This document shows positions 1 to 26,776 of a stretch of 64,000 bases of DNA, piece by piece. Positions within the stretch are counted from its first letter, which is position 1, and the number at the start of each line of letters is the position of its first letter. The stretch is from positions 1 to 64,000 of the IMG/VR virus record IMGVR_UViG_3300046028_009474; one strand, written 5' to 3'. The position numbers and the translations under genes are program-made. Source of the stretch: a virus. The notes below the pieces were generated by a model. The model saw only the letters and a list, made by a program, of their open reading frames with translations, was not told the DNA's origin and ran no database searches.

Positions 1-3000
1 AATAGCGCTACTGGTTCATTCGTAACAACTGGAGCTACTGGTGCATTTTTAACAACTGGCGCTGCTGATTTGAGGTACGTTGAATTTATTGATCAGCCAG
101 TTTTTCAAACGGGAAATCAAATAGTCTCAGGAACCAAAACCTTTCATAGCGGTTTACTAGTTCAGAATGGCAATGTTGGCATTGGCACGCTCGCGCCAAC
201 CGCCAAGTTAGAAGTCGTTGGAGATTCTAAAATATCTGGCAACTTAACTATCACCAACTACAATAGTGGAGTAGATGCTCTTGATAGGTTTGCTATTGAT
301 GGTTTTAATGGTAGGTTATTTGGAGTGTCTGATAGTGTAACTGGCACGATATTTTCCGTGAACGATGCGGCTGGCTTGCCAGTGATTGAAGTGGAGTCGA
401 ATCTAACAGATAAGATTACCATGGGTACTTACGGTAGTAATGCTCTGGTTGTAAATGACACTAAGGTTGGTATCGGCACCGCAACTCCTTCGGGCAAATT
501 AGAAGTTATTGGTGACACTAAAATATCTGGCAATTTAATATTCACAGATGGCGGCACTAGAACTATTTCTGGAGCATCAAACACTGTAGCTGGAGCTGGT
601 ACATCTTTGAATATTCGAGGAGGCAATGCTAATACAGCTGGTGTGGGTGGTAGTATTAATCTTATCCCAGGTATTGGAGCTGGAGGTCCAGGTAATGGTG
701 ACATTAATATTGGTTCTAGTGCATTAGGTCTCCCTTATAATATTAATTTAAATGCTGGAGCTGGAACTTTTATAAATTATACAGGTCCAAATGTAGGAAC
801 TACATTGACAGTTAATGGCGGCGGTAGAGAGTTGATGAGTTTTAATTGGGACAATATTAACAACGTCACATCATTAAAGAGTAGCAGCGCATCATCTATA
901 AGATTATCTGGAGCATTAGACTATCAAATAATGGGCAGTACTCCCACATCTTCTAGAGCTGCATTAAACGTAGTAAACTCTAATAACTCTAGTATAGCTT
1001 ATTTTAGAAATGATGGGAACGTTGGGATTGGAACGACAACCCCTTCTGGTAAATTACAAGTTGTAGACTCGACAACGACAATGAGTCTTAAAGCAAGTTC
1101 TTTAATTAGTAATAATTTTGGGCTTGAAATATATGGACCACAATCTGGAACTTATGGTGTGTGGACATTTGCATCTAATATATATGGGAGTGCTGGGATA
1201 TATCAAAATAACTCTCCTAAAATTTATGCAGATGCAAATTCAAGTTTTATAACTGGAAATGGTGCTTTAGTTACAGCTGGAAATCTAGACGCAAGTATTT
1301 CAAATACTTATAGCAAAATTAATTTATCTCCATCATGGGTTGAGAATGCTATACAGTTTTTTGGCAATTCAAATTCAGAAAAAATGCGTATATCAAGCGC
1401 TAATGGTAATGTTGGAATTAATACAACAACTCCTTCTGGCAAATTACAAGTAAATGTAAACGCTGGAACTTCACAAGAAGCGCTTAGACTTGTTACTACT
1501 AGTGCTAGTTTAAATACTGGTTCATACATGTCATTTTTTAGCGACACAGCTGAATTAGCAAGAATTAAAGGATACACAACATCTCTTGGCGCAAATGTCG
1601 GGCAAATTCTTTTAAATCCAGTATACAATGGAACTGAAATGAATGGCGTTAAAATATTTGCTACGTCAGCAGGAGGAGCAGTTGGAATCAATACCACAAC
1701 AACAAACTCCACACTAACTGCCAAATCTCTATATAATGGAGCTACAATTCTCTCCCTATTAGATCACGCAGATGTTGAAAAATTTACTGTATTAAATAAT
1801 GGTAACCTTGGAATTGGAACTGGAACCCCTTCAACTAAATTAGAAATACTTACATCTGCTGCCGCTGACGGAATTAAATTAACAAGAGCTGATGGAGAAA
1901 GAGCAGCTTGGTTAGTTGATGATGCAAATGGTATTGGGGCTTTATATTTATTTAATGGAGGTAATAGTAATAGTGTTTATTTGGCGGGTAATGGTAGTAG
2001 CTTTATAAACGGCGGTAATCTCACTATGAATGGAGGAAACTTCGGCATAGGTACTGGAACTCCAGTTTCTAAATTAACTATTAGAGGATCATCCACATCA
2101 GAGCAAATTGGTACAGTTTATGATTCTACTAACACTGAAAGATTAGCTTTTTCATATAATGCTAATGGAACGACTGTAAGTAGTTATGGAGGAGTAGGAA
2201 CAAGCCAATTAATATTAAGAAGCAATAATAATTCAGATACAACTGTAGCGGCCCATAATGGAAGCATAAATATTAATCCAGGTCCATATGATGGAATTAA
2301 TAGTTTTGCATTTAATGCGGGAGCAATAAGTTCATACGTTACAAATGTAGCACTTGCTAAAACTCAAGCTTCACAAATCACAACTTCGTTACACGATAAC
2401 TCTGGTAACTATGGTCAAATTTATTTACAGCCATATATAAATGGAACTGCTCAAGTGGGTTTGATGGTCAAAGCAGTAACTGGTGGAGCTAATGTTGGAA
2501 TCAATACTATTAATCCTACTGCAAAATTAGAAGTAATTGGAAACACTAGAATATCTGGAAATTTATCTTTCCCAAACACAGGATCAGCTCAGATTGCTAG
2601 TACTGGTAGTTTAAACATAAATGTTGGTGGGTCTGGAAGAATAAATATTACTAGCGCTGGGCTTGTTAGTGTAATGCCAAACCAAACACCAGTACAAGGT
2701 GCAGGTTTTAGATTATATGATAATAATGCTGGCAGCTATCACGAGATTCATCAACAATATGGAGATTTTGCTTTTAATACAACAGCTGGTAATACGAGAT
2801 ATACCTTCTATGCTAATGGAAATAGTCTAGCTCACTTTTCTAGCACGAATAGCTATTTTATTGCACCAGGAAATTTTGGCATCGGCACATCTACCCCTAC
2901 TGCTAAGCTCGACATAGTAGATGCAACATTAGCAGGTTCTGCTAGTTTATCAGGATCAGCTTTAAACATTGCCCAAACTTGGAATACGTCGGGAACTCCT

Positions 3001-6000
3001 ACTGCCATCAAGTTAAATATTACTGACACCCTCTCTAATGCTTCCAGTAATTTAATGGATTTGCAAACTAGTGGCATTAGTCAGTTTAGAGTGAATAAGA
3101 GTGGGAGTTTTATTAAAGACTCTTTAGAAATAAATACTTCGGCTCCTGGAGTTGGTGGAGTCAAGCCTGTTTTAACTCTGTATAGAAATGGCAGCGGTGG
3201 TGATGGATCATCTATTTTATGGAAGAGAGATGGAGGTCAAGAACTTGGAGACTTGAGACTTTTGGGATCAGCTACTCTTCCAACTTTGGCTATAAATTTA
3301 AGAAATAACTATCTAGCTCAAACTGATGTAGCGAGTTTTAATCTAGTTGGATCTAATAGAAGTTCTATTTTATTTGGTACTCCAAATGGAGTGAGCAGTT
3401 CTACATTAAGCATTTTTAATAGTAGTGCCGCTCAAAATACTACGGGAATCATTCTTGGCAACATGTCTACTAGTGCCAATTCTAATGTAGACATAAGATT
3501 TCATAACTATTTAGGTAATCCTCATGCAGCGATAAGAGGGTTGTATACTGCGGGGGGAGGAAATCAAATAGGGGGATTAGGATTTCTCACAGCAAACGGA
3601 GGATCTCTAGTTGAAGCTATGAGAATCACTCCTACTAATAATGTTGGAGTGGGAACCACTGCTCCAACTGCGAATTTTGAAGTTGTGCAGCCTACCGTGG
3701 GAGTTGGCACCATTTCGATTGGAGATTATGGAACTACAGTTACTGGAGTTAATACTCAATTTTTAAATACTTTTAAAGCTGGAGACACTATTACTGCATC
3801 TGGTCAAACTATAACAATCTCAGCAGTTTCTTCAAATACATTAATGACGACTAGCCTTGCGGTTTCAGGAGTATCTGGAGCAGCTTATTCATTGGTTGGT
3901 GGTTCAAGATTTAGAGTATATGGCAATGGCGACATGACGCTAGGTAGCACATCAGTTGTCGAGAGAACAGCTAATATTGATGGAGTAAATGCTAATAGAT
4001 TACTTATTGCTGGGAATTTTGGTTTTGGTGGTGGTGGGTACGCTGTCAGATCATCTACTATAAATAGTAGCTCTAGATTGGTAGTTAGTTCTCCTAATAA
4101 TTCATCAGCAACATCTGCTTATTTATTAGGTACTGATGGATTGCAGAGAGATAAAGGTTTAATATATGATAATAGTGGTGATTATATATCACTTGTCAAT
4201 GGTTCTAATTCTAATAATGATTCTTATACTAGAAGATTAACTATTTTAAATAATGGCAATGTTGGAATAGGCACTACAACCCCAACAGAAAAACTAGATA
4301 TTATTGGCAATGCTAAAATATCAGCATCTCTCTCAACTAATACTCTTGGAGTTTCGGGGGCTAGCGTATTCAATTCATCCGCAGCGTTTACAGTGCGACC
4401 AACGGTTAATAGCTCTGGAGTTTTATTAGAGGGAGAGTTATCTACTGGAGCATTCTTAACGACTGGCGTTGCTGATACAAGATACGTAGCAACTGGCGCT
4501 ACGGGATCGTTCTTAACAACTGGCGTTGGAGATGCGCGATACGCATTTAGCAGCGCTACGGGATCGTTCCTAACAGCGACTACTGCTAACGCACTTTACG
4601 TTGAACTCGCTGATCAGCCAGTTTATCAAACTGGCACTCAAACGATTTCGGGATTAAAAACGTTTGCTGACGTTTTGAATTTAACAACGCAAGCGACTGC
4701 CTCAAATCACGCTGTTCGTGCTGACCGCAACTTTTCAGCAGGAGCTGGGCTTCTTGGTGGCGGCGATTTAACTTCTAACAGAACATTCTCCGTTGACACA
4801 TCAGCAGTGGTGACAACAGTGGGAACGCAAACGATTGCGGGAGTGAAAACATTTACCGAAAGACCTACAGTCAATAGCTCTGGCGTTTTATTAATAGGAG
4901 ACTCTGCCACTGGCGCATTTTTAACAACAGGCGCTGCTGATTTGAGATATGTAGCAACTGGCGCTACGGGATCGTTCTTAACGACTGGCGCTGCTAATTT
5001 ACAATATGTTGAATTTGCTGATCTTCCAGTTTTCCAAACTGGTAATCAAACGATTTCGGGAGTCAAAACGTTTGCGACTGGTTTATTAGTTCAAGGAGAC
5101 ATACAAGCTACCTCTATTACTACGAGTTCTATTACTACAAATTCTGCTACAGCTTTAAGTTTGCAATATGCTGCGGCTGGACATGTTGCTATACATACCA
5201 ATTTAAATATAGTTCCAGCAGGAGGTTCTATTTCAATAAATAACAACACATTCCTTACTAGCCGTGGAGCTGCTAATTTTAGACTAGGAGCAGCAGATGC
5301 TGCTGCACCAGTAGCACAAACACTTTCTGTTCAATCTGTAGCTGCTGGAATGACTAATACTGCTGGAGCAAACTTGACTGTGACTAGTTCTCAGGGAACA
5401 GGAACTGGAGTTGGTGGATCTATAATCTTCCAAGTAGCTCCAGCAGGAAGCTCTGGTACTAGTCAAAATGCTTTAATACCCAGAGTAATTTTCCCAGCAA
5501 CAAGTGCTGGTGGAGTAGTTATAGCATTTAATGCTTTAGACTCTTCAAACGTAGCTTTACGATCAACAGGAACAACTCTAGATATTGTTAGAGCGGATGC
5601 GGGAGCTTTTGCAAATTTAACAGCTCAGAATATTACAGCCCAGGGAACTATAACTACTAATAATTTTGCTATTATTTCTAATGTTAATGTTGCTGCAACA
5701 ACTGGAGAACAAATTGCATTCATTGCAAGCACTACAAGTAATGGCACTGCTGCTAATGGATTTGGCACACGCATCTCTTTGCGCACAGAATCTAGCACAA
5801 CTGCTAATAGAGATTCTGGAGCTATTGCTGCTGTTTGGAGCGATGCTACAGACGCTACAAGAACATCAGACTTACTATTATATAATACACTTAGTGGTAC
5901 ATTAACAGAGTGTTTAAGGATTTTAGGTACTAATGGTAATGTTGGCATTGGGACGGCAACTCCATCATATAAACTCACAGTAAATGGAGGAATATATATT

Positions 6001-12603: not shown

Positions 12604-13692
12604 TTAATTTGGAATTTTATACTCATCCTCACCATCATCTTTAGCCAAAGATTTAAAAACTATATCATGAATAAAAGAATAATGTTTTTGAATTGCTGGA
12701 ATTTTTGTAAAACTCTCACTATTCAAAGCGAATAAATTTACAATATTAAAAATTTTGGATGGTCTATTGCCCTCAAATTCATAAGTTTCTTGAATCAAAT
12801 CAAATAACAATTTTAGCATTTTGACTCTGATTAGAATGTTGAAGCAATTTTTATATTCGCCCCAAAGAGTTTTAGAGTATTCTAAATTTTGGTTTTTAAT
12901 AAATTCCAAAAAGAATTCTTTTTCTAGAGTTTCATTTAAATTAAATTCAACTACAATTGCTGCAAAGTCAAAATAACTATTACCGTAAAAGCTTTTTGTA
13001 AAATTCACAAATTTAAAAATATCATTTCTGAATAAAATATTTTCAGAGTTTATGCTTCCATGGCAAAATTCTTTTTTGTCTACCACTCCTATTGTATAGT
13101 AAGATGATAAATCAGTTTTAATTTCTTCAATAATAGACTGCATATTGTTGAAAGATTCATCTGTTTTAAACAATTCGACAATATCCTCCGACAAAGATTC
13201 TACTGAGCACTCTGCAAAGATGTTTGATAAATAGTCTTTTAAACTAATTCGCGGCAAGTTATTATTCTGCAACGAAAAATAACATTTCATAAATGCTTCT
13301 AGATTTTCAATGACCACTCCTCTTCCTGCCTCATAAATAGTTTCAGCATTTTCAAATGATGTGATTGAGTAAGATATTTCATCACCGAATTTTACAATTC
13401 CATATTTAAATGGTTTTGGCTGCATTGCTAGCTTGCTGCTAGATAGAATGTTATGCTCATATTCAAAACCCTTATAATCAACATCTAAACTATATTTAAT
13501 ACAATAAGAGTATCCATTAATACTAGCTTTATAAACATCGTAATTGTAATTAGATGCAACAAATTCAATACTAGAGCTCTCGCCAAGTTCACAGTGTTTA
13601 ATAATTTCATCAATAATTTCAAAGTCTTCGCCTTTGTTTTCTACTCTTTCAAACAAGAAGGCTGTATTTTTTACTACTGATTTTAAATTCAT
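12604..13692 (-). CDS. Kinase-fold protein (APH/choline-kinase-like) with degenerate active site
   Basis: The ~362-residue protein follows the aminoglycoside/choline phosphotransferase layout. An N-lobe has a Lys in the strand YSYCIKYS. A catalytic-loop-like CHGSINSENIL follows, then KFVNFTKSFYGNSYFDFA. In active members these read HGD..x..N and (I/V)D(F/W)...Gdp..D. Here the catalytic Asp of HGD is Ser and the metal-binding Asp is Asn, so it may be a pseudokinase. I chose the ATG at 13692 rather than an upstream TTG at 13707. The gene lies just after a terminator and ends 3 bases from the convergent fibre gene. Substrate and role are unknown; fold assignment is by motif only. Confidence 0.55.
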   Translation of the reverse strand: MNLKSVVKNTAFLFERVENKGEDFEIIDEIIKHCELGESSSIEFVASNYNYDVYKASINGYSYCIKYSLDVDYKGFEYEHNILSSSKLAMQPKPFKYGIVKFGDEISYSITSFENAETIYEAGRGVVIENLEAFMKCYFSLQNNNLPRISLKDYLSNIFAECSVESLSEDIVELFKTDESFNNMQSIIEEIKTDLSSYYTIGVVDKKEFCHGSINSENILFRNDIFKFVNFTKSFYGNSYFDFAAIVVEFNLNETLEKEFFLEFIKNQNLEYSKTLWGEYKNCFNILIRVKMLKLLFDLIQETYEFEGNRPSKIFNIVNLFALNSESFTKIPAIQKHYSFIHDIVFKSLAKDDGEDEYKIPN

Positions 13693-13705
13693 GACATTTG
13701 TATAC

Positions 13706-13739
13706 AAAAAAAATGGGATGCGCTAATAGCGCACCCCAT
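13706..13739 (-). terminator. Rho-independent terminator after the small Sm/SH3-like gene
   Basis: On the minus strand a 10-12 bp GC-rich stem (GGGGTGCGCT / AGCGCATCCC, one G-U pair, loop ATT) is followed by eight T residues. It ends the long minus-strand replication block just before the kinase-like gene, which therefore depends on read-through or on its own promoter. Confidence 0.85.
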
Positions 13740-13752
13740 ATACTATTCACTA

Positions 13753-14004
13753 TTAACCAACAACATATTCCTTTTTGGAAATTCGCACCTTAGCAATAGA
13801 CTTTTTACTAAAGCTCCTAAACTGATCAGCGTTACGATCATAAACTGTCATGTAACAATTAGTCTCACCAACAAAACGCGCATTGAGAGTTTCACCTTGA
13901 ACTGTATCCAATCCAAAGTACCTGCCGCGAGAACCTCTGAGAGCGGAAACTGTTTCGTTTAAAGTAGAAGAGCGTCGTTGATGTGATGTGGTTGTGTTAT
14001 TCAT
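13753..14004 (-). CDS. Small conserved basic protein, possible Sm/SH3-like barrel
   Basis: This 83-residue protein has a Ser/Thr/Arg-rich flexible N terminus (about 1-25). A compact segment of alternating beta-strand pattern follows: GRYFGLDTVQGETLNARF, then CYMTVYDRN and FRSFSKKSIAKVRIS. That strand-turn pattern is like small nucleic-acid-binding barrels (Sm or SH3), but no family can be named. It starts 10 bases after the Clp-type gene in the same direction and is followed by a strong terminator, so it is the last gene of that transcription unit. No classical ribosome-binding site precedes its ATG. Confidence 0.6.
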   Translation of the reverse strand: MNNTTTSHQRRSSTLNETVSALRGSRGRYFGLDTVQGETLNARFVGETNCYMTVYDRNADQFRSFSKKSIAKVRISKKEYVVG

Positions 14005-14014
14005 ATAGGAGATA

Positions 14015-16324
14015 TTAACTCAACAACAGCTTATTGTCAACAACTTTAATAGAAATCTTTAAGGTTTTAGAGTTTTTTAAGTAGAATTTTGCCAAGGGAG
14101 CTTCGATTTGATTTCTAATAATTGAGTCAATGTTGCGAGCATTATTTTCTTTTTTAACAATGCTGGACAAGTGTGCGAGAGTCTTTTTGCAGAATGATAA
14201 TTCTACCTCTTTTTCTTTTAAAATGCTTTTAATTGAGTTGAGCTTGGTGCTGATAATCTGTTCAAAATGAGAGAGTTCCAAGCTTTTAAAAACAATGATT
14301 TCATTGATTCTAGCCACTAGTTCTGGTCGCAGATATTTTTTTACAGAAGCTAAGAAGGAGCTTTCATTAGACACTTTTTGAGAGATGAATCCCACTTGTT
14401 TCTGACTTGCCTCTTCATTACCAATGTTACTGGTCATGATGATGATGCATCTGGAAAAATTGATTTTACGATTAAAGTTATCAGATATACAAGCTTCGTC
14501 CAAAATCTGAAGCAAGAGATCCAAAGTATTTTTGTGACACTTGTCAACTTCATCAAACAAGATGACAGAATTAGGATTTTTACGAACAAACTCTGTTAAA
14601 ATACCGCCCTCTTCAAATCCAACATATCCAGCACTAGTTCCAATCAGCTTGGAAATAGAAGTGGTTTCTTGATATTCACTCATGTTTAATTGGAGAATAT
14701 TTTTTGGATTGCCGTAGAATTTACAAGCAATCTCTTTAGCCGTGAATGTTTTGCCTACACTAGTTGGTCCCACAAAAAAGAAGCTAGCAATAGGCTTGTT
14801 TGGTTTTTGAAATCCAAATTTGGAGCAGCTTAAAACATCGTAGATTTTAGAGATGTTTTGTTCTTGACCTAGAATTTTTTTGTTTAAATCAGTTTCAAAG
14901 TTGTGAAAAGCATTGTTGTAGTTTTGCTTCATCGAAGCAACGTCAACGTTGATTTTATTAGCTACTACTTCATAGATGCAATCTAGAGAAACTTTGGGGG
15001 TTCTAGTTTTTTTGTTTTTAATTTTAGTTTTAGTAGAAGCTTGATCAATGATGTCAAAAACTTTATCTGGAAATCTTTTATGCGGCAAGTAAGTTTCGCA
15101 CAAATCAATTGTCAAATTCAAAACGTTTTCAGGATATTTAACTTTGTGAAATTTTTCATAACTAGGCAGAGCTTTGAATGACATTTCTTTAGTCATTAAT
15201 TTTGAAGGCTCATCAATGTTAATCATGTCAAATCTTCTAGCAAGTGCAGCATCTTTTTCAAAAGCTTTTTTATACTCTTCGATGGTTGTTGCTCCAATAC
15301 ATTTAATTTCCCCGCGAGCCAAGGCTGGCTTAATCATGTTAGCCACATCTAAAGAGTTTTCTCTATTGCCAGCACCAATCATTGTGTGAATTTCATCAAT
15401 GAAAAGAATGAGTTCTTTGTGAAGTTTCAACTGCTTGATGACTTTTGATAAGCGATCTTCTAGTTGACCTCTGTATCTAGTGCCAGCAGTTAAGAGTCCC
15501 ATGTCGAGACTATAGATTTTATTGTTTTGCAGCGGTCCAGAGTACTCTTCAGTAGAGATTAACTGAGCAAATCCCTCTACTATACTTGTTTTACCAGTTC
15601 CAGCTTCTCCAACTAGAATACAATTACTTTTTACTTTTCTGCAAAGAGACTGTTCGATTAATGCAATTTCACTATCTCTGCCAGAAATCTTTGGAAACGA
15701 TGGTTGATTAACTTCATCATTTAAAATGCTGCCAAATTTTTTGAGATAGCCATATTCTACATCTCCATAATCATTTTTAACTCCATCTGGAGAATCATCT
15801 TCTTCATCCTCCCCGTCTTCGTCATCATAATACTCTTCATACTCGCTCTCGTCATCTGCAAAAATATTTCCAGATACGAAAGATTCAATGCAAGTTTTAA
15901 AGTGCTCTGTATCAATGTCTTGAGTTAAAAGAAAGCTGCAAAATTCATCAGGAGTATTGAGTATTCCGTACAATACATGTTCAACTCCAATAAAATAATT
16001 GTTCTTTTTATAAGCAAAGCTCAAAGCTTCAGCTATTGAAGAGGTTGTAGAAGAGCTAAAAACCACCTCTTTCTTTTCCGAATCAAACAAATAAGGATAC
16101 TTTAACGCAAATCTAGAAATGAATCTCTCGACTTTTTCATCAGAAAGCTCCACGCCGCGAGAGAAAATATACTCTTTAAAATTCTTATTAGCATTTTGCC
16201 ATGCGCTGCAAAATAGATAGCAATTATTAACGATATTTTGGTCGCTACTAGAGACTTTTAGTTTAACATTGTTAAACGCTCTTTCAACACTAGGAGTAAA
16301 CTTAATATTATTAATGTCCATCAT
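14015..16324 (-). CDS. ClpA/ClpC-type AAA+ unfoldase
   Basis: A two-ring Clp ATPase of 769 residues. Its order is: Clp N-domain-like helices (about 1-150, second repeat ending in FIGVEHVLYGIL); a very acidic linker (about 155-190); AAA-1 with Walker A GEAGTGKT (239-246), Walker B LILFIDE (to 311) and ARRF (362-365); AAA-2 with Walker A GPTSVGKT (519-526) and Walker B VILFDE (to 592). There is no ClpB middle coiled coil between the rings, so it is ClpA/C-like rather than a disaggregase. AAA-2 carries a VGF tripeptide (644-646) where ClpP-docking loops have (I/L/V)G(F/L). It could feed substrates to host ClpP. ATG at 16324; a second ATG follows at once. Confidence 0.9.
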   Translation of the reverse strand: MMDINNIKFTPSVERAFNNVKLKVSSSDQNIVNNCYLFCSAWQNANKNFKEYIFSRGVELSDEKVERFISRFALKYPYLFDSEKKEVVFSSSTTSSIAEALSFAYKKNNYFIGVEHVLYGILNTPDEFCSFLLTQDIDTEHFKTCIESFVSGNIFADDESEYEEYYDDEDGEDEEDDSPDGVKNDYGDVEYGYLKKFGSILNDEVNQPSFPKISGRDSEIALIEQSLCRKVKSNCILVGEAGTGKTSIVEGFAQLISTEEYSGPLQNNKIYSLDMGLLTAGTRYRGQLEDRLSKVIKQLKLHKELILFIDEIHTMIGAGNRENSLDVANMIKPALARGEIKCIGATTIEEYKKAFEKDAALARRFDMINIDEPSKLMTKEMSFKALPSYEKFHKVKYPENVLNLTIDLCETYLPHKRFPDKVFDIIDQASTKTKIKNKKTRTPKVSLDCIYEVVANKINVDVASMKQNYNNAFHNFETDLNKKILGQEQNISKIYDVLSCSKFGFQKPNKPIASFFFVGPTSVGKTFTAKEIACKFYGNPKNILQLNMSEYQETTSISKLIGTSAGYVGFEEGGILTEFVRKNPNSVILFDEVDKCHKNTLDLLLQILDEACISDNFNRKINFSRCIIIMTSNIGNEEASQKQVGFISQKVSNESSFLASVKKYLRPELVARINEIIVFKSLELSHFEQIISTKLNSIKSILKEKEVELSFCKKTLAHLSSIVKKENNARNIDSIIRNQIEAPLAKFYLKNSKTLKISIKVVDNKLLLS

Positions 16325-16337
16325 AAAATTTTACACT

Positions 16338-17525
16338 TTACTTTACATCAGATAGCTTCATATAAATTTTATCTTCTAAGGGAGAGAGGCTATTGATGCT
16401 GATGATATCATTGCTTTTTCTTCCAGTCAAGATGATAACTTCTCCTTTTTTGGGAAGAACTTTTCCAGATTGAATGAAATTGGAGTATGTGGCATTTTGT
16501 TGAGAGTCCATCATGAGTGCTGTTAAATTGCCAGATTCATCAGACATTTCTAGTCTAGCATATTTGTTTCCTCTAGCGCTAGTTCTAGAGATGACATCGC
16601 TCACAGTTCCGACAAATTTAATTTTTTCATTGTTTCCAAGCTCAGAAATTCCACTAGAAGAGATTAGTGTTTCTCCAGAGTTTTCAGTAAAAACTTCTCT
16701 AATATTAGTAGAGTGACTGTATCCCAACAGCTTAGTTTCAAAATACCAATTAGCGAATTTTAAGTGCTTGTGATTTTTTTCATAAATTACTTTGTATGGT
16801 TCGTACTTTGATTTAAAGGTGACGAATCTTTTTTCAGAAAAGATTAATTTATTATTGTCATCTACAAGTGATTGAGTTGTGCATTCGTGAATGCACTTCA
16901 AAACATCATAGTTGAAACGCTCTCCAAGAGCTATCACGCTACGCTTCTCCTTGTCAGTGAGCAGGTTGAACGCCTGCGCCTCTAGAACGAGCCTACAGCG
17001 ATCTTTATTCAAGAAGTGATCAAGCACCCCAGCTTGAATCAAAGCGGATAAGACGCCAATATTAAGCCCCGCTTGCTTGGCAGCTAAAAAAACCTCGTAC
17101 TTGTTCTTGAACTGCCCTTCGCGAAACTCAATCAAACTCTCTAATGATTTAGTAGACACTCCTTTGATAGAATTTAATCCATAACGAATATCCTTGCCTT
17201 GAATTGTAAAATCAATTTCAGACTGAGCTAAATCTGGAGCTAAAAGCTTGATGTCGAACAATGGAAGCTCTTGTGTGATTTTCGAGATTTCCTCATGAGG
17301 ATTCGGTTCAAATTGAGCATACTTTAAAAGACTCAAATAAAACTGTTGTGGATAATTGAATTTTAAATAGATTGTAATGGCTGCAAGATTCGCATATGAA
17401 ATGGAATGCGAATTTGATGTAATTAAGTTTTTAAGATAAAAATTATGATCAGTGGAATCGACTTCCAAATCAATAGTTTTTTTAATACCTAATGGTTTAA
17501 AAGATTTAATTCTTGTAGCTTGCAT
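16338..17525 (-). CDS. dnaE: DnaE C-terminal fragment preceded by a C-intein
   Basis: Residues 1-38 are the C-terminal half of a split intein, ending in LITSN. From Ser39 the sequence SHSISYA continues the DNA polymerase III alpha fingers (usual form FNKSHSxAYA...YLK..YP). Then come the rest of the fingers, a helix-hairpin-helix-like region (about 130-170) and an OB fold (about 300-375, IKFVGTVSDV...YARLEMSD). After trans-splicing this completes the polymerase begun at 18441-20216. No clear QxxLF-type clamp-binding motif is seen at the C terminus. The start overlaps the end of the homing endonuclease gene by 37 bases. The Clp gene follows after 13 bases. Confidence 0.9.
   Translation of the reverse strand: MQATRIKSFKPLGIKKTIDLEVDSTDHNFYLKNLITSNSHSISYANLAAITIYLKFNYPQQFYLSLLKYAQFEPNPHEEISKITQELPLFDIKLLAPDLAQSEIDFTIQGKDIRYGLNSIKGVSTKSLESLIEFREGQFKNKYEVFLAAKQAGLNIGVLSALIQAGVLDHFLNKDRCRLVLEAQAFNLLTDKEKRSVIALGERFNYDVLKCIHECTTQSLVDDNNKLIFSEKRFVTFKSKYEPYKVIYEKNHKHLKFANWYFETKLLGYSHSTNIREVFTENSGETLISSSGISELGNNEKIKFVGTVSDVISRTSARGNKYARLEMSDESGNLTALMMDSQQNATYSNFIQSGKVLPKKGEVIILTGRKSNDIISINSLSPLEDKIYMKLSDVK
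17412..17525 (-). other. C-terminal half of split DnaE intein (38 aa)
   Basis: Intein block F/G-like sequence TIDLEVDSTDHNFYLKN followed by LITSN, then extein Ser. The terminal Asn and +1 Ser fit class 1 splicing. The penultimate residue is Ser rather than the common His. Partner of the N-half at 18444-18731. Confidence 0.88.
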
Positions 17526-18439
17526 GTTAAAATATTTTTAAATTCTTCGTTATTTATTTCAGTCTCCCATAACTCTATCATAGTCCAACCCTTTTTGTCA
17601 AGAAATTTTTTCTTAGATTTATCTCTTCCAAAGTTTCTTTTTTGTATTTTCCCAGATGGTCCATTTGGGTAGAATCGAGGATCTATATGGAAATAAGTTC
17701 CTTGGCATTCAATTGCAATTTTAAATTCAGGAAATGCAAAATCTAAAGAAAAATATACTAAATGATACTCTTCTTCAAATAAACATTTAAGTGGTATTTC
17801 ATTTAAAAATTCTCTTACTTTGATATGTATAGAAGTTTCCCTTTTAAAAGTTCCGTCGCTATATCTTTTTGCTGTAATTTCACTTAATTTATTTTTAGTC
17901 TCTTCTGAGTGCTTCTTTCCAGAGTGGCCGTGAATTTTTCTAACTAAAGCAGATTGAGATTGTTTTATTTTTGTTTCATCTGAAGTTATTGACCCCAATC
18001 TTCTATTTCTGACTTGCTCCCCCCATTTAAGATCCCCTTTATTCCAAGCTTCTTTTCCAAACATTGGATTTGCAGATCCCATTCTCTCTATAGAGATTCT
18101 TTCGCAAAACTTTTTAAACTTTTCATTTTGTTTATTAGTGCCTTTCCCAAGTTTATAATTAGAAAATAATACTCCAGCGCCAATAAGTTGAAAATTAACA
18201 TCTTCATTCGTCTCTAAGCATTTAGGATATTCTTGCAAATATAATTTAATATAATTAGCAATATCAGTATTGTGATATTTTTTTAAATAATTATTGAATT
18301 TATTTAAATAATAAGCTCCATCCTGTCTAGTTGGAAATAATTTAATTATTGTTTTTTTATCTACGTTGTCTAATAGACAAAAATTGAATTCTTCTGCTGG
18401 AATTAATCTATGATTAGAATCGGTTTTAATTAGTCTCAT
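17489..18439 (-). CDS. NUMOD3/Vsr-like homing endonuclease between intein halves
   Basis: This 316-residue free-standing endonuclease lies exactly between the two halves of the fractured dnaE. The middle (about 120-200) has NUMOD3-like DNA-binding motifs (NPMFGKEAWNKG and HSGKKHSEETKNKLSE). The C-terminal third has a Vsr/PD-(D/E)XK-like core: SLDFAFPEFKIAIECQGTYF, then a His, a DKSKKKFLDKKGW segment and LWETEI. This class of nuclease is known from fractured split-intein genes in environmental phage sequences. It begins 1 base after the N-fragment stop and overlaps the C-fragment start by 37 bases. It should cut intein-less dnaE alleles and spread the split-intein cassette. Cut site is inferred. 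Confidence 0.85.
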   Translation of the reverse strand: MRLIKTDSNHRLIPAEEFNFCLLDNVDKKTIIKLFPTRQDGAYYLNKFNNYLKKYHNTDIANYIKLYLQEYPKCLETNEDVNFQLIGAGVLFSNYKLGKGTNKQNEKFKKFCERISIERMGSANPMFGKEAWNKGDLKWGEQVRNRRLGSITSDETKIKQSQSALVRKIHGHSGKKHSEETKNKLSEITAKRYSDGTFKRETSIHIKVREFLNEIPLKCLFEEEYHLVYFSLDFAFPEFKIAIECQGTYFHIDPRFYPNGPSGKIQKRNFGRDKSKKKFLDKKGWTMIELWETEINNEEFKNILTCKLQELNLLNH

Positions 18440-18440
18440 A

Positions 18441-20216
18441 CTAATTATTACACATAATTAGCCAATTATTTTCAAGAATATCTTTAATAGGATGCATTTT
18501 TAAATCATGCTCACATAAAAACTTATGCTCCATAGAGCATTTGATAGAAACCCCATTCTCCATTTCAAATTCAAAAATTTCTTTTTCATTTTTCATTATA
18601 TCTAATACTCGAACATAATGATCCTGCTCGTTTTGAATATCGAACGCTTTGATATAATCTCCGCAATTAATATCTTTCAACATTTTTATTTCTCCCGAAT
18701 CTAATTCAACTGTCTCTTCTTCAAAAATGCACTTATTAAAACTATAATTTGCGGAGTCTGATGCAACCTTCCAAAAAACATCTCCAACAATTGGATCAAG
18801 ATCGTTTTCTATAATTTTATCTTTAATTTTACCCTGCCAGATAGCCATTTGATCCACTTTCTTTTTACCAATAATTCTTCTAAGCTGTTCGGCTTCATCC
18901 AAGCTGAATCCAATTTTCTTACACATTTGAAGTGTTTGTTCTTGGTATAAACATAATCCTCCAGTAGATGAAAGCACATCATCAAAGAATAGATGAATAG
19001 ATTGAAACTCTCCAGTGCGAGAATAATCTGCATAACGATCAACGAAGTCTAAAGCTCCAGGTCGAGCCAAGGCTACCACCGCAGAGAGTTCTTGCAGATT
19101 TTTCGGAGCTACTTTTTGAGCTACTCTAAAATTAGTATCAGCTTCAATTTGAAACAATCCCTTGGGGCTTTTCAAGATTTGCATTGCTGCATAAATGCTA
19201 GGATCTTCAACATTAATGTCGTCCACGTTAATTCCAATCATAGAACAAACATCATGAATCACCGACAGAGTTCTGAGTCCTAAGATGTCGAATTTAACAG
19301 TCAGTGCTGAGACGCTGTTCATGTCGTATCCAGATACAATAGCATCTTCGCCAGTCTTTTGGATTGGCATAATGTCTGGAAGATTATAAAAACTAATCGC
19401 AATCCCCGAAGGATGAACTCCAGTATTTTTGTTTAAGCCCTCTAGTTTGTTAGCAATAGTATATACCTTTTTGTGGGACAGTGCAAAAGCTTTAAAAACT
19501 TCGCTCTCTTCAAAAGCATCTTTTAGCTTGAGAACTTTGCCGAATTTTTTAGGAATAGAATCACTAATAATGTTCACCTCTGTTTCTGACATTTCAGCAA
19601 CAATTTTCCCGCACTCTTTAACACAGAGCTTGCCACTCAAAGTATTCATTGTGAGAATTTTAGAAGTTTTTCCTTTATATTTATTATTAATATATTCGAT
19701 CACTTCATTTCTGCGCTCATAGCTAATGTCATTGTCAATGTCTGCGAGAAGAGATCCGTCGAGATAAATCTCCCCTTCGCTTTCAATGATTTTAGCTCTG
19801 CTTTTAGAAACAAATCGTTCAAAAAAGAGATCGTATTTGATTGGATCAATGTTTGTAACTGCAATGCAATACAAGACTAAACTACCTGGAGCACTTCCTC
19901 GCCCAGCCCCTACTGGAATTTTATTCTCATGACAATAGTTGATAACATCCCAATTCAAAAGAATATAATCAATGAATCCTAATTCCTTTAGGATTGACAG
20001 TTCCATTGTTAATCTTTCATAGTAAACTTGCTTGTTTGGAAGCTCGTCAATTTTTCTTTTCTTAACACCTTCAAAGCAAAGCTTGCGCAAAAAGTTAAAA
20101 TTAGAAATGCTTGATTGGCATCCAAGAAGATCGTAGTATTTTTGGTCTACACGAATTTCTGGAAGTTTAACCCCAGCTGGAAATGGACTTTTGTAAGGAG
20201 AAAAACTAGTAATCAT
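18441..20216 (-). CDS. dnaE: DnaE palm/fingers fragment with C-terminal N-intein
   Basis: A bacterial replicative polymerase (PolIII alpha) fragment of 591 residues. Visible are the palm GAGRGSAPGS (103-112), the catalytic D159-I-D161 pair in LADIDND, and KFDILGL with the third Asp at 310. The fingers end at ANYSFNK (495). Cys496 starts a 96-residue N-intein that runs to the stop. The PHP domain is not in this ORF; it is encoded separately at 20835-21587. The start overlaps the exonuclease stop by 4 bases (ATGA). Active alone only after splicing with the fragment at 16338-17525. Confidence 0.92.
   Translation of the reverse strand: MITSFSPYKSPFPAGVKLPEIRVDQKYYDLLGCQSSISNFNFLRKLCFEGVKKRKIDELPNKQVYYERLTMELSILKELGFIDYILLNWDVINYCHENKIPVGAGRGSAPGSLVLYCIAVTNIDPIKYDLFFERFVSKSRAKIIESEGEIYLDGSLLADIDNDISYERRNEVIEYINNKYKGKTSKILTMNTLSGKLCVKECGKIVAEMSETEVNIISDSIPKKFGKVLKLKDAFEESEVFKAFALSHKKVYTIANKLEGLNKNTGVHPSGIAISFYNLPDIMPIQKTGEDAIVSGYDMNSVSALTVKFDILGLRTLSVIHDVCSMIGINVDDINVEDPSIYAAMQILKSPKGLFQIEADTNFRVAQKVAPKNLQELSAVVALARPGALDFVDRYADYSRTGEFQSIHLFFDDVLSSTGGLCLYQEQTLQMCKKIGFSLDEAEQLRRIIGKKKVDQMAIWQGKIKDKIIENDLDPIVGDVFWKVASDSANYSFNKCIFEEETVELDSGEIKMLKDINCGDYIKAFDIQNEQDHYVRVLDIMKNEKEIFEFEMENGVSIKCSMEHKFLCEHDLKMHPIKDILENNWLIMCNN
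18444..18731 (-). other. N-terminal half of split DnaE intein (96 aa)
   Basis: It starts with Cys directly after the extein sequence SFNK and shows block A-like ETVELDSGEIKMLKD...GDYIKAFD and block B-like VSIKCSMEHKFL, where H69 is the usual block B His. The ORF stops after 96 residues with no endonuclease domain, as in split inteins. The C-half is 38 residues in a separate ORF about 0.9 kb downstream. Confidence 0.9.
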
Positions 20217-25650: not shown

Positions 25651-26776
25651 TATTGATGAGCTTCTTAAAGTATCCAATCAAGAAGGCTGCTAATTTAACA
25701 TCGTTCTCAATGAACAAGAATAAATTGTCAGCCCCTTGAATTTTCTCAGGAATTATAATAGCAGTTTCTTCTAGCACTAATTGCCGAAACTCTTCTGAGA
25801 TGTTGATCCAAGCTCCTTTGCGAGAGATGAACTCCCATGCATAAAGCATATCAACGATTTCTTTTTCGATCCAAATTGAATTGCCATTGCTTCTTCCATA
25901 TTTAATAGGATATGGAATTGTTAAGTTGGTCTTTTCATTTGGAGACTTCTTCACTGTGGCTTTTGCAAAGTGACCAATGATTGGATTATTGATTAAATCA
26001 ATTTTATTATCGTTGGGATTTTTGAGAATAAGATCTCCCTTGAATCTTGGTTCAAACTCAAGAATCCAGTTGGCAAAGTGAAGCAGAGCGTTGCCGCCAG
26101 TAGCAGAGGTTTGGCGCACTGGAGCTTTGGAGTATGGATCAAGTTTGATATCTGCACGAACTTGACTGATAAAAATTGCCAAGTGACCCCTCTTGCACAG
26201 AGAGATTGACATTCGCTTCATAAAGTTACCAGCAATCACTGCTCCACCAGCAACCTTATTGCTATCCTCAAATCCCTTGTCCAAATCTCCTTTAGAGATG
26301 AGTCCATCCACAGAGTCTAAAAGGAAAAAGTAGAATTTATTTTCATCATTTTTACCCACTAGTTGTCGCATAGCATCAACAGCAGTTTCATAAATATTTG
26401 TTTCAAATACAAAACAAGTTCCATCAACCCATTCATCCGCAGAGAAAACAAATTTAATACCAGACCTTTCTCTCATTTGTTTGGAGAGGCGACCTTCAGC
26501 TTTGATGTAAAAACCTTTGCGATTAGCACCACCATCTAAAAAGCCCTTCATGAATGAGAGGGCGCAAGATGTTTTTCCAGTTTCATTTGGCCCGCAAAAT
26601 CTGTGCAGTCCTGGTCCCAATCCGCCATCTAAATGCAAGTCCAATTGCAGAGATCCACTAGAAACTTTATAGTCAATTTCTTCTTCAAAATTATAGTGAT
26701 CTTCAGAATTTTGCTTGAGGAATGATCCCAGAACATCGGATGATTTTACAAACTCTTTATCTTTAATTTTGCTCAT
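25640..26776 (-). CDS. recA: RecA/UvsX-like recombinase
   Basis: This 378-residue protein is the phage strand-exchange recombinase. Visible motifs are Walker A GPNETGKT (62-69), YIKAEGRL with the likely catalytic Glu94, Walker B FFLLDSVDG (about 151-158), and an L2-like RQTSATGGNALLHFAN region with the conserved GGNAL. It coats single-stranded DNA for recombination-dependent replication. It overlaps the upstream unknown gene by 14 bases and the downstream nuclease by 11. Confidence 0.92.
   Translation of the reverse strand: MSKIKDKEFVKSSDVLGSFLKQNSEDHYNFEEEIDYKVSSGSLQLDLHLDGGLGPGLHRFCGPNETGKTSCALSFMKGFLDGGANRKGFYIKAEGRLSKQMRERSGIKFVFSADEWVDGTCFVFETNIYETAVDAMRQLVGKNDENKFYFFLLDSVDGLISKGDLDKGFEDSNKVAGGAVIAGNFMKRMSISLCKRGHLAIFISQVRADIKLDPYSKAPVRQTSATGGNALLHFANWILEFEPRFKGDLILKNPNDNKIDLINNPIIGHFAKATVKKSPNEKTNLTIPYPIKYGRSNGNSIWIEKEIVDMLYAWEFISRKGAWINISEEFRQLVLEETAIIIPEKIQGADNLFLFIENDVKLAAFLIGYFKKLINNEV

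Follow-up and report, generated by a model that had tools for sequence, protein, structure and literature searches.

A replication-linked phage Clp unfoldase and its putative docking on host ClpP through a conserved VGF loop

'Clp protease ATP-binding subunits' have long been annotated in phage genomes with no evidence for joint action with ClpP. One such protein is encoded in a 64,000-nucleotide stretch of viral DNA (termed the window; positions 1 to 64,000 of IMG/VR record IMGVR_UViG_3300046028_009474), and it raises the question of whether a phage unfoldase docks on ClpP and, if so, on whose. A first-pass annotation, made from the sequence alone, suggested that the protein may redirect host ClpP to substrates chosen by the phage. 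The reading favored here, with a probability of about 0.72, is that a virus-specific double-ring Clp would dock on host ClpP via a VGF tripeptide in its second ring (D2), to give a hybrid phage–host AAA+ protease. The gene and its parts are as follows.

14015..16324, minus strand: phage Clp/Hsp100 unfoldase, 769 aa, two AAA+ rings (phrog_4871; Pfam AAA, AAA_2, ClpB_D2-small)
15872..16324, minus strand: Clp N-terminal domain, eight helices, residues 1–151 (model secondary structure and homologue alignment)
15785..15874, minus strand: very acidic disordered linker, residues 151–180 (composition and pLDDT)
15017..15745, minus strand: D1 AAA+ ring, residues 194–436 (invariant alignment columns)
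14981..15025, minus strand: position at which the ClpC-type M domain is missing, 14 aa against ~60 (alignment, trees)
14018..14929, minus strand: D2 AAA+ ring, residues 466–769 (alignment)
14357..14419, minus strand: flexible D2 P-loop carrying VGF, residues 636–656 (low-pLDDT coil in the model)
14387..14395, minus strand: VGF tripeptide, V644-G645-F646, predicted ClpP H-site docking motif (alignments, conservation)

The phrog_4871 profile matches the window Clp over its full length (E 2.9e-189). In the Pfam search AAA, AAA_2 and ClpB_D2-small are matched, and the N-terminal part does not reach the Clp_N threshold. Phage Clp ATPases are already known under phrog_4871, and the gene is therefore not new in kind. 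Both motors are intact in the alignment. D1 has Walker A and B, the pore tyrosine and the arginine fingers; D2 has Walker A and B, the pore loop GYVG, the sensor-1 asparagine, the arginine finger and the sensor-2 arginine. With an N domain and two rings that carry Walker A/B motifs and pore tyrosines, the protein is a class I Clp/Hsp100 member. Purifying selection on the gene is strong (dS 0.86, dN 0.07 and dN/dS ~0.08 between the window and its relative L001). The AlphaFold model has a mean pLDDT of 81.8, and its best structural matches are ClpC in ClpC–ClpP complexes and ClpA in ClpAP (Z 32–33). The linker had been described as very acidic, and residues 151–180 indeed contain 17 D/E and no K/R among 30 residues; pLDDT is below 50 at residues 155–189. 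The acidic linker is lineage-specific, being found in the window and L001, and weakly in L017, only.

The earlier label 'ClpA/C-type' calls for a refinement: the window Clp is a member of a clade made up of viral proteins alone, apart from cellular ClpA and ClpC, and the other members have an M region of ClpC size that the window's branch has lost. In the D1–D2 tree, the window belongs to an entirely viral clade of 24 rows (SH-aLRT 100), separate from cellular ClpA, jumbo-phage ClpA-like proteins and Bacteroidota-like phage ClpCs; the trees come from fast IQ-TREE runs supported by SH-aLRT alone, and deep branching orders are tentative. Many of the first matches, 'phage' records from Listeria, Staphylococcus, Enterococcus and Acinetobacter MD-2021a, look like bacterial contamination. 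L015 and L016 were used solely as cellular ClpA/ClpB references, and L003 and L004, being unrelated to full-length Clp, were rejected as relatives.

With respect to known families, the best NCBIfam model is the ClpA equivalog TIGR02639, with 594 bits against a cut-off of 993. ClpB is marked by a long middle domain and the lack of a docking loop. The window Clp has the loop and, as the first-pass annotation noted, no ClpB middle domain: 14 residues are present, compared with ~133 in ClpB and ~60–70 in ClpC. The same 14 residues separate it from proteins classed as ClpC, in which an M domain of ~55–70 residues lies in D1. Bacterial ClpC (of ClpCP) has in common with the window Clp two AAA+ rings, an N domain and a hydrophobic-GF P-loop at the same place in D2. 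The window Clp, however, is ~35% identical to ClpC, has lost the ClpC-type M domain, carries the acidic linker, is phage-encoded beside dnaE and belongs to a viral clade of its own. Bacterial ClpA (of ClpAP) also has two rings, a docking loop and no M domain, but the window Clp scores below the equivalog cut-off, lies outside cellular ClpA in the tree, and arrived at its lack of an M domain secondarily. Most members of the viral clade have ~60 residues at the M-domain site, and the window, L001 and L017 have 14–21. Because L242 and L243, the sisters of these three in the D1 tree, keep the M region, its loss is secondary. The M domain is the key contact in the inactive resting state of ClpC, for which a P-loop is also described (PMC12521514). 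Since the M domain holds ClpC in its resting state and this lineage has lost it, an unregulated enzyme is naturally expected; the window Clp is probably active without a host adaptor.

The VGF tripeptide is specified by codons GTG GGA TTC at 14395..14387 (minus strand) and corresponds to V644-G645-F646 of the open reading frame 14015..16324. By phmmer, the peptide around it, NEEASQKQVGFISQKVSNES, aligns with KYVGFNVQ of the Bacillus subtilis ClpC P-loop. When viral and cellular Clp proteins are aligned together, ClpA and ClpC of cellular origin have IGF, VGF, LGF or MGF in the same column with few exceptions, and ClpB has no such motif there. The VGF coincides with the docking-loop site of ClpC, ClpA and ClpE, which is where the first-pass annotation had placed it, and residues 644–646 provide the hydrophobic-Gly-hydrophobic motif in the D2 P-loop that characterizes ClpP partners. 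By composition the tripeptide is cheap (the chance of [ILV]G[FL] at any one place is p ~0.0015), and the protein's other VGF, at residue 568, falls within the D2 pore loop GYVG; thus it is the place of the tripeptide that counts. Burial of the loop had been considered an objection to docking. In the AlphaFold model, the loop is an unstructured, low-confidence coil between helices 636–640 and 653–664, and not a buried element. VGF in the P-loop is an established ClpP motif: in ClpE it enters the ClpP H-sites, and the VGF-to-GGR change leaves the protein deficient in ClpP interaction (PMC13125188).

Which ClpP would be the partner is addressed by gene content. The absence of an encoded ClpP, noted earlier for the window, extends to the whole 65,628-base record, which is probably partial and contains no match to PF00574; no ClpS adaptor was found in this record or in the two closest relatives. 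No ClpP-family protein is present in any of the 79 records of the clade that shares the gene cassette described below (>3 Mb, mostly fragments; the first 65 records amount to 3.1 Mb, and 16 of these are at least 70 kb). The complete genome of Vibrio phage P018-4, from the wider clade, has the VGF loop and no ClpP. Because of these absences host ClpP is the likeliest partner in the window's clade, and the earlier suggestion that it is used gains support to that extent, most records being fragments. Comparison of DnaE and the ribonucleotide reductase (RNR) with those of named phages gave only distant matches, with mixed hosts. The alternative of a phage ClpP encoded outside the record, the two forming an autonomous phage protease pair, has a parallel in the ClpP-family genes of the L054 record, Phosso, RaK2, XbC2 and four records with Clp proteins that lack the N domain; set against the 79 records, the 16 longer ones among them and the P018-4 genome, it is quite unlikely.

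Phage Clp ATPases, phage ClpS and phage ClpP have been described in jumbo phages (PMC6102473, PMC7824862). The phrog_4871 proteins, termed 'ATP-dependent protease' and found in RaK2-like jumbo phages and Vibrio phages, are phage-encoded Clp ATPases with the loop, as is the window Clp. RaK2, XbC2 and Phosso differ in that their proteins group with cellular ClpA, that they have ClpP-family genes of their own, and that the gene neighborhood is another. Some phages direct the host Clp protease through proteins such as SPO1 Gp53, which modulates host ClpCP, and phage-encoded ClpS (PMC6873191, PMC7824862). These are adaptors, whereas the window Clp is the unfoldase itself.

The clp gene is part of a conserved cassette with the order dnaE – clp – 83-aa protein – pseudokinase, the other members of which in the window are as follows.

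16338..17525, minus strand: DnaE C-terminal piece, directly upstream of clp, 13-base gap (HHH_6)
13753..14004, minus strand: 83-aa conserved partner ORF, directly downstream of clp (family co-occurrence)
12604..13707, minus strand: APH/choline-kinase-fold protein, 367 aa, downstream of the 83-aa ORF (model, LicA match)

The pseudokinase family is too divergent for conserved-pattern clustering, and the 83-aa family served as the locus anchor. Among the 80 viral loci found by this family alone, clp is present in 75, directly upstream of the 83-aa gene in nearly all, and the 367-aa protein in 65. Pfam and PHROGs provide no clear name for the 83-aa protein, which may have an SH3-like fold, as similar phage proteins do. 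The model of the 367-aa protein (pTM 0.84) has the APH/choline-kinase fold and matches LicA (4r7b) with a Z of 20.3 and an rmsd of 3.7 over 275 aligned residues. The catalytic Asp of the HGD motif is Ser in the window protein. Since this Asp is found in 11 of 65 relatives and the beta-3 Lys is kept in 62 of 65, the protein is probably a pseudokinase. Both small partners are candidate adaptors or regulators of Clp.

In the window, dnaE is fractured (16338–20216, minus strand), with the N part and intein-N at 18441–20216 and intein-C and the C part at 16338–17525. A NUMOD3/homing-endonuclease-like open reading frame (17489–18439) lies between the parts; L054 shares it, with 53% identity. In L001 and L002, dnaE is split with no endonuclease open reading frame, and in most other relatives it is intact. 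Elsewhere in the window, ARAGORN calls a 92-base tRNA-Asp (anticodon atc) at 25980–26071 on the plus strand; it overlaps an opposite-strand open reading frame and is possibly spurious.

In 69 of 69 complete loci dnaE is immediately upstream of clp, with a gap of −7 to 19 bases. Such strict linkage would also suit a ClpP-independent remodelling chaperone of the replisome or of virion assembly, whose VGF would be a relic of a ClpC-like ancestor, and a role as translocase or in virion assembly has been proposed for a jumbo-phage ClpA (PMC7824862). This is improbable, because a relic should have drifted in so variable a loop as the phages diverged deeply, and should have disappeared with the D2 motor instead of turning up as a C-terminal tail. 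In the alignment, the hydrophobic-Gly-hydrophobic motif is present in every viral homologue of the clade. Across the 63 two-domain proteins of the cassette clade, the loop Gly is found in 63 and the Phe in 62, and neighboring loop columns are mostly 20–45% identical. Four relatives (L228 at 2633–4930, L258, L259 and L267) have a decayed D2 that has lost the pore Tyr, the Walker-B Glu, the Arg finger and the sensor-2 Arg; all four retain the tripeptide at the loop as MGF or LGF (in the form SMGF or LGF). The D1 motor and pore residues are invariant in every two-domain member, those with a decayed D2 included. A Clp that only occupies the ClpP H-sites as a competitor, displacing host ClpX, ClpA or ClpC and shutting off host proteolysis, would by docking alone explain both the conserved tripeptide and the tolerated decay of D2, but it is very unlikely, as a mere plug has no need of these D1 residues.

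A further branch has no D2. Its Clp proteins (L269–L288; for example, L213:3478-4974) are 494–500 aa in length and consist of the N domain, D1 and the M region. I-G-F stands at the C-terminus of each of the 19 distinct proteins, with 18 ending in IGF and one in IGFH. The tail that precedes it is otherwise variable, and 18 of the 19 have no other such motif anywhere in their sequence. A C-terminal motif of that kind is seen in 0 of the 63 two-domain proteins. A separate D2 was not found in the D2-less records. Weak AAA_2 matches, considered as a D2 split off as its own gene, fall inside the Clp gene's own frames of ~500–520 aa, and this candidate was rejected. The codons ATA GGA TTT are nearly fixed in the D2-less proteins, and the AGGA within them might double as the ribosome-binding site of the following open reading frame where the spacer is short. 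The spacers of L225, L226 and L283, at ~25 bases, are too long for this role, and IGF is still kept.

The D1 tree sets the decayed-D2 and D2-less groups apart. Thus, D2 function was lost at least two times, with the tripeptide surviving each time; D2 loss is to be counted as two evolutionary events, not as 23 independent ones. The fixed Gly and Phe, the motif kept in decayed D2 rings and the IGF tail of the D2-less proteins together argue that the loop is not a relic. The exact place, the near-total conservation and the retention of the tripeptide after decay or deletion of D2 make ClpP docking by the window Clp well supported at the level of sequence comparison. The series runs from an intact D2 with its loop, through a decayed D2 that retains it, to no D2 and a C-terminal IGF. 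It represents a natural experiment, and it indicates that selection protects ClpP docking as a function in this clade.

With regard to hybrid phage–host proteolysis, the double-ring unfoldase, both motors intact, would be made together with the phage replicative polymerase and would engage host ClpP through the D2 loop. The choice of substrate may come from the divergent N domain, the acidic linker or the two co-encoded proteins, and substrates are perhaps replication or defense proteins. Physical docking, the use of host ClpP and the identity of substrates are what we infer.

Proteasomal ATPases have C-terminal HbYX tails. The D2-less relatives resemble these, by analogy only, in that a short hydrophobic docking tripeptide ends a single AAA+ ring; they differ in having the ClpP tripeptide IGF as tail and a ClpC-type D1 as ring. 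In the literature searched, no paper on C-terminal IGF tails for ClpP was found, and HbYX-like C-terminal docking is not described for ClpP partners. A broader proposal, that the Clp proteins of one clade of aquatic phages hijack host ClpP, that docking and the second motor came apart in their evolution, that the D2-less branch docks its single D1 ring through HbYX-like C-terminal IGF tails, and that the 83-aa protein and the pseudokinase act as adaptors, is tentative and stands at somewhat less than even odds. The small single-ring proteins make ClpP docking directly testable and offer a minimal ClpP-docking tail. New elements are a viral clade whose cassette is linked to replication, the secondary loss of the M region and, most notably, relatives that lack D2 and carry a C-terminal IGF; the conserved cassette also highlights two uncharacterized partner proteins.

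Loops with a third residue other than F or L are rare. They are IGM, IGV and MGM in L054, L012 (RaK2) and L013 (XbC2), and VGY in L095. Such loops are mostly found in phages with a ClpP-family protein of their own, and they may represent co-adaptation to the phage ClpP. Lastly, L035–L091 are phage ClpC-like proteins of ~670 aa without an N domain; they form a large group near Bacteroidota ClpC, and some of these phages have their own ClpP.
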